A DNA stretch of 64,000 nt from Pseudomonadota bacterium (GTDB taxonomy: Bacteria > Pseudomonadota > Alphaproteobacteria > Acetobacterales > Acetobacteraceae), in assembly GCA_021809435.1 (NCBI GenBank), contig JAKBAD010000003.1:124001-188000 (forward strand). The letters are read 5' to 3'. Of the stretch, positions 50,125-52,145 are shown piece after piece; position 1 is the stretch's first letter, and each line of letters starts with the position of its first letter. The translations under genes and the position numbers were made by a program. Below the pieces are notes generated by a model that made no database searches, had not been told where the DNA came from, and saw only the letters and a list, made by a program, of their open reading frames with translations.

Positions 50125-50610
50125 ATGACCCCGCGCATCGGTACCGGTTTCGACGTTCACGCCATGGCGGAAAACCGCGACATGATTATCTGCGGGGTCA
50201 AGATCCCGTTCGAGAAAGGCCTGGCTGGCCATTCGGATGCCGATGTCGGCATTCATGCGCTGTGCGACGCGATTTACGGCGCGCTCGCCGAGGGCGATAT
50301 CGGCCGGCATTTCCCCCCCTCCGAGGATAGCTGGAAAGATGCTGATTCCGCACGGTTTTTGGTGCACGCCGCCGGGCGCATCAAAGCCCGTGGCGGCAAG
50401 CTGGCCAATGCCGATATCACCATCATCTGCGAACGCCCCAAAATCGGCCCGCACGCGGCGGTCATGCAAGCCCGCCTGGCGGCACTGCTCGATGTGGCGC
50501 CGGGCAAAATCTCGGTGAAGGCGACCACCACCGAGACGTTAGGCTTCACCGGCCGGGGCGAAGGCATCGCCGCCCAGGCATCGGTGATCGTAATGGTTCC
50601 CGAAGAGTGA
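50125..50610 (+). CDS. ispF: 2-C-methyl-D-erythritol 2,4-cyclodiphosphate synthase, standalone
   Basis: Fifth step of the MEP isoprenoid pathway. The 161-residue protein is a complete IspF: metal ligands Asp10 and His12 in GTGFDVH, the GHSDADVGIHALCDAIYGALAEGDIGRHFP block, and the substrate loop KATTTETLGFTGRGEGIAAQASV. In most alphaproteobacteria the gene at this place, next to dusB, encodes an IspD-IspF fusion of about 380-400 residues. Here there is no IspD domain in frame and none in the 110 bases upstream, so ispD must be elsewhere. Confidence 0.94.
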   Translation: MTPRIGTGFDVHAMAENRDMIICGVKIPFEKGLAGHSDADVGIHALCDAIYGALAEGDIGRHFPPSEDSWKDADSARFLVHAAGRIKARGGKLANADITIICERPKIGPHAAVMQARLAALLDVAPGKISVKATTTETLGFTGRGEGIAAQASVIVMVPEE

Positions 50611-50729: not shown

Positions 50730-50822
50730 TATAGAATGAGGCATAGGATGAGTTTCCTCTCCTATTTTCTTGGACGTTTCCTCCCTAAACTTGGCGGCGC
50801 GCATTCGCGCCGCCTTTTTTTT
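50730..50822 (+). ncRNA. Candidate small RNA with anti-Shine-Dalgarno motifs and own terminator
   Basis: A TATAGAAT -10-like element at 50730 is followed by about 80 bases that contain two pyrimidine stretches (TTTCCTCTCC at about 50753 and TTTCCTCCCT at about 50777) and then a textbook terminator. This plan, C/U-rich loops able to pair with ribosome binding sites followed by a strong hairpin, is known from trans-acting small RNAs of alphaproteobacteria. No good -35 box is evident and a short reading frame from 50737 cannot be excluded, so this is a candidate only. Confidence 0.4.
50793..50822 (+). terminator. Strong intrinsic terminator between ispF and ssrA
   Basis: A nine-base stem, GGCGGCGCG with CGCGCCGCC, a CATT loop and eight T residues. 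It lies about 180 bases after the ispF stop, unusually far for an ispF terminator, which suggests a separate short transcript. Confidence 0.92.
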
Positions 50823-50901
50823 GCGCAAAATTCAGGGGCGCGAAAAGCGCGGACCTTGGGATGCCGTTTGCGATAGGCCAAAGAGAAAATTTTTGCGGAA
50901 A

Positions 50902-51160
50902 GTGGGGGGCTTCTGTTGCCCGGTGCCCCCCGAACCGCGCTTAGCTGTTTTTAGGCAGCGACAGCGAATGCAACGTTGTTATCGTTCGCATTTAAAAAAT
51001 AGCCCGATGACGGCGGTACAATGCCGAGCAAAAGATGGGTCTTTACTACACGTGTCGAGCCTGTTTCGCCCCCATAAATGGTGGAGGCGCCGGGTACCGC
51101 CCCCGGGTCCACAATGCTTATTCCACGCACCGTTTATTGCCATAGCCGGCGAACCGGCAA
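50902..51160 (-). ncRNA. ssrA: Circularly permuted two-piece tmRNA
   Basis: Ribosome-rescue RNA, read on the minus strand. First comes the acceptor piece (about 51160-51079): a T-arm of CCGGG/CCCGG with loop GGCGGTA, then CGCCTCC and ACCA, ending at 51079. After five bases the coding piece begins at 51073 with GGGGGCG, which pairs with CGCCTCC over seven positions including a G-U at position 3, the alanine identity pair. The resume codon GCG is at 50989 and the tag reads ANDNNVAFAVAA, stop TAA at 50953-50951. A seven-base GGGGGGC/GCCCCCC stem closes the coding piece near 50904. Both outer ends are approximate. Confidence 0.93.
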
Positions 51161-51164
51161 CACT

Positions 51165-51193
51165 TATATAGACCGCGAAGCCCTGCGGTGAAA
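51165..51193 (-). promoter_or_regulatory. Probable ssrA promoter
   Basis: On the minus strand TTTCAC, 17 bases, then TATATA (51170-51165), which would start transcription near 51160, exactly where the acceptor piece begins. The -35 is a poor match, the -10 is good. Confidence 0.5.
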
Positions 51194-51236: not shown

Positions 51237-52145
51237 ATGACCCTGACGCCAGAACAGACAACCGAGATCGAAGCCGCGCGCGGCCGCACCCACGCCACCC
51301 TGCGCCCCACCGTGCCCGCGCTCGAGGAAAAGCTTTTCACGGCCTTCCCCGTGCTCGACCATGGCTTCATCCGGGTGGTCGATTATATGGGCGATGACGG
51401 GGCCGTGGTGCAGGCAGCGCGGGTCTCTTATGGCCGGGGCACGCGTAAAGCACTCGAGGATGAGGGGCTGATCCGCTACCTCATGCGCCATTACCACTCC
51501 ACGCCCTTCGAGATGTGCGAGATCAAGTTCCATGTGAAACTGCCGATTTTCGTGGCTCGCCAGTGGATTCGCCACCGCACCGCCAATGTGAATGAATATT
51601 CGGCGCGCTATTCGGTGCTCGACAAGGATTATTACCTCCCCGCGCCCGAAAATCTGGCCAAACAGTCGGTGGTGAACAACCAAGGCCGCGGCGAGGTGCT
51701 CGATGCCAAAACGGCCGCGCGCGTGCTTGGCCTGCTGCAGGCCGATGCCGAGGCGACCTATGGCCATTATGAAGACATGCTGGGCGACGAAATCGGCCTG
51801 GCGCGTGAACTGGCGCGCATGAACCTGACGCTCAACACCTATACCCAATGGTACTGGAAGACCGATTTACATAATCTCTTCCATTTCCTGCGCTTGCGCG
51901 CCGACTCCCACGCGCAGTATGAAATCCGCGTTTACGCCGAGGAGATGCTGAAGCTGGTCGAGGCCTGGGTGCCGCTCTCCTGCAAGGCTTTCCGCGATTA
52001 CCGCCTGGGCGCGGTCACGCTCTCGGCGCGCATGCTTGAGGCCGTGAAGCGCATGCTGGCGGGCGAAACGGTCACGGCCGAGAGCGCCGGGCTCTCAAAG
52101 CGCGAATGGGCGGAATTCTCAGCCGCCCTGGGCCGTGAGGCCTGA
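51237..52145 (+). CDS. thyX: Flavin-dependent thymidylate synthase ThyX
   Basis: Makes dTMP from dUMP with FAD/NADPH and methylene-tetrahydrofolate. The 302-residue protein has the diagnostic signature [18 protein letters not shown], preceded by [29 protein letters not shown], and the dUMP/FAD segment [25 protein letters not shown]. No ThyA is present in the window. The gene is divergent from ssrA. The ribosome binding site is weak, with only GAG close to the ATG. Confidence 0.96.

Follow-up and report, generated by a model that had tools for sequence, protein, structure and literature searches.

The window examined here, a stretch of 64,000 nucleotides (nt) from contig JAKBAD010000003.1 (assembly GCA_021809435.1), carries on its minus strand, between ispF and thyX, a circularly permuted ssrA gene for the alphaproteobacterial, two-piece type of transfer-messenger RNA (tmRNA). 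The genus of the species appears to be Acidocella (Acetobacteraceae), an acid-loving alphaproteobacterium. Judged by its sequence, the gene is almost certainly the single, and most likely functional, circularly permuted ssrA of this species; it is a plain member of an already known family. The Rfam model alpha_tmRNA (RF01849) matches the minus strand at 51197-50901 with 262.9 bits (E 2.4e-75; gathering score 50) and spans model positions 1-355 of 355, and the model tmRNA_permuted (RF04321) matches the same gene with 149.2 bits; these two scores exclude chance. ARAGORN likewise recognises the gene as a permuted tmRNA (50860-51173) and reads the tag ANDNNVAFAVAA. A preliminary description of the window had named the gene and both neighbours and proposed a covariance-model search; the full-length RF01849 match and the Pfam matches of the neighbours (PF02542 for ispF, PF02511 for thyX) bear this out. 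It had also called the gene 'hidden', which does not apply, since standard tools (ARAGORN, Rfam) find it.

The order of parts is that of a permuted gene; the acceptor (3') part comes first and the coding (5') part second, and the spacer (intervening sequence) lies between CCA and G1. The acceptor piece covers 51079-51160 on the minus strand, with an approximate mature 5' end deduced from the RF01849 alignment and the sequence. It includes the T-arm at 51090-51106 (CCGGG-GGCGGTA-CCCGG; T-stem strands 51106-51102 and 51094-51090, from the sequence and the RF01849 structure line), the 3' strand of the acceptor stem, CGCCTCC (51083-51089), the discriminator A73 (51082) and the encoded CCA (51081-51079). 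The 5-nt spacer, TTTAT, follows at 51074-51078. The coding piece (50901-51073), whose approximate 3' end is set by the end of the RF01849 match at 50901, begins with the 5' strand of the acceptor stem, GGGGGCG (51067-51073; sequence and RF01849), and contains the tag reading frame at 50951-50989, in which ARAGORN reads ANDNNVAFAVAA and the stop codon TAA; the frame has the stop and the AA end expected of this family. Seven acceptor pairs form, including the alanine identity pair G3-U70. The mature pieces would thus measure ~82 and ~173 nt by sequence, their outer ends being deduced. Element order, encoded CCA, stem, G3-U70, spacer length and tag frame with stop had all been read correctly in the preliminary description, and its range of 50902..51160 fits the mature pieces.

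Within the 2.65-Mb genome there is one match to RF01849 and one to RF04321, and both are the window gene. A scan with RF00023 returned 13 matches, none of which reached the cut-off; they are probably tRNAs, because 12 of them have lengths of 75-93 nt and one of 18 nt. A second ssrA is therefore rejected, as no further match above cut-off was obtained with any of the three models, and the gene stands as the sole ssrA found in the genome. The preliminary description had named a missing covariance hit and another complete ssrA among the results that would refute it; neither was obtained. The genome also encodes the partner protein SmpB (PF01668, 155.3 bits, in a frame of 165 amino acids) and an RNase P RNA.

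The families alpha_tmRNA and tmRNA_permuted share with the window gene the gene order, acceptor stem, T-arm, tag and stop. Relative to RF01849, the window spacer has 5 nt where the model has 28 positions; otherwise there is no difference of substance. The two-piece tmRNA of Caulobacter (Keiler et al. 2000, as related in PMC3985003) is encoded by a permuted gene and works in trans-translation; like the window gene it is permuted, in two pieces and alphaproteobacterial, a likeness by description; the window gene is known from sequence alone. Algae and archaea have permuted tRNA genes in which the 3' half also precedes the 5' half, with an intervening sequence of 1-74 base pairs (bp) between the acceptor ends, but these halves are ligated at the junction into one tRNA, whereas tmRNA remains in two pieces (PMC3978253).

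The spacer of the window gene had been considered short even for permuted genes. Genomes were scanned for a sequence pattern at the level of the order (spacers of 0-30 nt allowed), of the class, and of 84,980 species (0-6 nt, with a stricter pattern). At order level the pattern with a 0-30 nt spacer has matches in 173 of 299 genomes, and among the matches listed at least 17, in five genera, have a spacer of 10 nt or less; in the class, spacers of up to 12 nt occur in 40/385 genomes (30/277 genera). The widest scan, restricted to 0-6 nt, yielded 52 loci. Of these, 49 form seven acceptor pairs (a count that tests pairs 5-7 only; see below), and three with fewer pairs were set aside. The 49 spacers measure 2 nt (n=7), 3 nt (n=12), 4 nt (n=8), 5 nt (n=15) or 6 nt (n=7), so that 27/49 have 2-4 nt; named examples of short spacers come from Belnapia, Commensalibacter, Acidicaldus, Acidisphaera and Devosia. 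Across the short-spacer loci, acceptor pairs 5 and 6 vary on both strands (GGGGACG/CGTCTCC, GGGGGTG/CACCTCC, GGGGATG/CATCTCC). The presence of G3-U70 in all 52 loci is not evidence, because the pattern itself required it. ARAGORN, run on 20 of the 52, reported a tmRNA in 18. All three scans thus reject uniqueness of the spacer; going by their counts of equal and shorter spacers, that of the window gene is short but ordinary for a permuted tmRNA, and the earlier claim does not stand.

Some points weigh against this reading. The scan pattern fixes most of acceptor pairs 1-4 (wholly in the 84,980-species scan), which is what confines the seven-pair count to pairs 5-7, and it misses genes without an encoded CCA. 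Four of the 49 seven-pair loci (L101, L111, L122, L132) yielded no tag in a scripted search, although L101 did receive one from ARAGORN; among the 20 loci run, ARAGORN reported no tmRNA at L112 and L122. Within the genus, moreover, 5 nt is the shortest class of spacer (4/36 genes), against a median of 68.5 nt. Acidocella aromatica DSM 27026 belongs to this class, its spacer being TTCAT.

This genus comparison rests on 36 permuted ssrA genes from 35 of 38 genomes, two of them in one metagenome-assembled genome that is 82% complete. Seven acceptor pairs and T at position 70 (where the script also allowed C) are found in all 36, and the tag ANDNNVAFAVAA in 34. An unusual tag is thereby rejected; the tag, which the preliminary description had thought worth recording, is the genus norm. 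The mature parts are similar throughout, with a mean pairwise identity of 0.918 for the acceptor piece (72 nt) and 0.902 for the coding piece (175 nt; lowest pair 0.667). Spacer length varies between 5 and 115 nt, and the mean pairwise identity of the spacers is 0.245. CCA is encoded in 29/36 genes; the other seven (L046, L048, L051, L058, L062, L065, L066), whose close relatives have CCA, would need a CCA-adding enzyme. In the tmRNA database paper, too, CCA is not always encoded in tmRNA genes (PMC11915505).

Nineteen of the 36 genus spacers (loci L033-L067) contain a dispersed palindromic repeat of ~50 bp, GGCGGCCCGATTCAGACTACG..CGTCATCGGGACGCC. It sits between CCA (or A73) and G1, in one orientation in 14 genes and in the other in 5. 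Its pairing is kept by two-sided changes at 7 of 18 pairs, a value reached by 0/500 shuffles. A covariance model of the palindrome finds 79 distinct places in 27/38 genus genomes, 19 of them within ssrA, and some copies form arrays with a period of ~60 bp. At the level of the order there are matches in 54/299 genomes (10/65 genera), weaker beyond the genus. The palindrome is absent from the window (16-base core, up to 3 mismatches) and, by the covariance model, from the whole genome to which the window belongs.

No Rfam family reached its gathering score for the palindrome in the eight loci scanned. The repeat contains CGTCATC. Members of the super-family of CGTC-tagged repetitive extragenic palindromic (REP) elements have a stem of 8-9 bp that encloses a loop of 4-5 nt and is flanked on one side by an unpaired CGTC, and they also carry a CCA-like tail; in the fold used here GTC is paired and the hairpin has ~50 nt. 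One survey gives CGTC repeats as missing in Acetobacteraceae (PMC3733652). Mobilisation as a REP by a RAYT-type transposase is not supported, with PF01797 (Y1_Tnp) present in 5/38 genus genomes compared with 27/38 for the repeat. Palindromic elements have been described in Rickettsia tmRNA (Ogata et al. 2002, via PMC2229807); a palindromic repeat inside ssrA is thus common to Rickettsia and to the 19 Acidocella genes, by description and not by sequence, whereas the genome of the window itself lacks the palindrome. A repetitive element in the intervening sequence of one permuted gene is on record in the tmRNA database paper (PMC11915505). No paper listed by the literature searches, which covered few subscription titles, indicated palindromic repeats in the ssrA spacers of Acidocella; at most, the repeat adds a new case to something already described. 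As a side observation, copies or arrays of the palindrome lie near a tRNA gene in 4 of 10 stretches read, namely tRNA-Ala in L180, L184 and L189, which may represent a single orthologous place, and tRNA-Leu in L187.

Taken together, the spacer of Acidocella ssrA is probably, though by no means surely, a recurrent lodging site for the ~50-bp palindrome, which would be gained, lost, exchanged or inverted between sister species with hardly any change in the mature RNA; the window gene would then be an emptied site, and its 5-nt spacer may represent the empty state. The direction of change was considered on a phylogeny of thyX from 35 loci (L058, where no thyX was found, was left out, and for L054, a split match, the longer part only was used), with spacer states labelled by hand; 15 of the 32 inner branches are starred. 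The four genes with 5-nt spacers (L035, the window gene, with L036, L044 and L045) group with L039 (support 96/94), whose 38-nt spacer also starts with TTTAT. This grouping would fit either a TTTAT-like stub that gained a hairpin or one that was left behind when a hairpin was lost.

Other results speak against a lodging site. Spacer states are not clearly clustered on the thyX tree (17 changes, a number as low in 29/200 shuffles), so the tree does not tell gain from loss; short spacers need 4 changes on it, as low in 16/500. Furthermore, 8 of the 27 repeat-bearing genus genomes have the palindrome outside ssrA only, and in one of these eight, G318, no ssrA was found. If the lodging-site reading is true, a conserved RNA gene provides a natural assay of how indifferent processing enzymes are to loop length and to an encoded CCA. 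The spacer series, which spans 5-115 nt in this genus and reaches down to 2 nt in other taxa, is joined to similar mature RNAs, some of them without encoded CCA, and could reveal the enzymes that cut and trim permuted tmRNA; the window gene itself only adds to the examples of an RNA that is already well described.

How such a transcript might mature can be outlined from the sequence and from related systems. On folding, a short loop (ACCA + UUUAU) would close the acceptor stem. Most likely RNase P then cuts before G1 and frees the coding piece, and the acceptor piece keeps the five spacer bases as a short 3' trailer, much as a tRNA does at its 3' end, until exonucleases remove them up to CCA. 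Held together through the acceptor and neighbouring stems and charged with alanine through G3-U70, the two pieces would act together with SmpB in adding ANDNNVAFAVAA to stalled proteins. The spacer itself would be left over and neutral, of a length that makes little difference; in the genus it often contains hairpins or the dispersed palindrome. With one cut by RNase P and the spacer staying behind as a 3' trailer, a special enzyme appears unnecessary. The concern that 5 nt leave little room for processing enzymes is not sustained; 27/49 loci have spacers of 2-4 nt, and one RNase P cut would suffice.

A review names RNase P and tRNase Z as probable processing enzymes of permuted tmRNA (PMC3985003). 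Maturation into two pieces in alphaproteobacteria is supported by northern blots in Orientia (PMC7335160), and Hodgkinia, with a 129-nt spacer, shows signs of end trimming and CCA addition (PMC6581868). RNase Z as the 3'-end enzyme is unconfirmed in the window's genome, which counts against the proposed scheme; the best match to TIGR02651 is below the cut-off, covers 58/302 positions, and lies at G000:C4:647676-647846 (L190) in an open reading frame (ORF) that reads by translation as PhnP-like and adjoins a TatD-like ORF.

A quite different outcome would be that the 5-nt loop stays, either as an uncut, permuted one-piece RNA or with processing specialised for tiny spacers. The small spacer fits this idea, as does the stability of the closed acceptor hairpin (-12.4 kcal/mol, z -3.19; 1 of 200 shuffles folds as well). 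It is nevertheless very improbable, because closely related sisters differ widely in spacer length: 29 and 65 nt in L038 and L067 (acceptor pieces 0.986 and coding pieces 0.977 identical), 7 and 73 nt in L046 and L037 (0.917 and 0.914). The RNase P RNA in the genome also argues against an uncut loop, which, moreover, would offer no free CCA 3' end for alanine. Even less credible is a decayed or silent copy with a working ssrA elsewhere. Such a copy could explain why no sigma-70 promoter-like site was found on the minus strand between 50600 and 51400, but it is at odds with the lack of a second above-cut-off match genome-wide, with a full-length RF01849 match in which tag and stem are intact, and with orthologues beside thyX throughout the genus. 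A functional two-piece tmRNA, cut and trimmed as outlined, remains the preferred reading.

The divergent neighbour thyX lies at 51237-52145 on the plus strand (PF02511, E 2.3e-56) and is close to ssrA in 35/36 genus loci. The convergent neighbour ispF, at 50125-50610 on the plus strand (PF02542, E 5.2e-63), is present in 28/36, some loci ending early. A terminator scan gave nothing on the minus strand around the window ssrA. Convergent with ssrA, an Rfam match to the suhB/mmgR small RNA lies at 50752-50829 on the plus strand (49.3 bits; gathering score 41), and a terminator-like hairpin at 50793-50814 falls within its region. The suhB/mmgR match also occurs in both of the ssrA loci scanned, L054 and L061.
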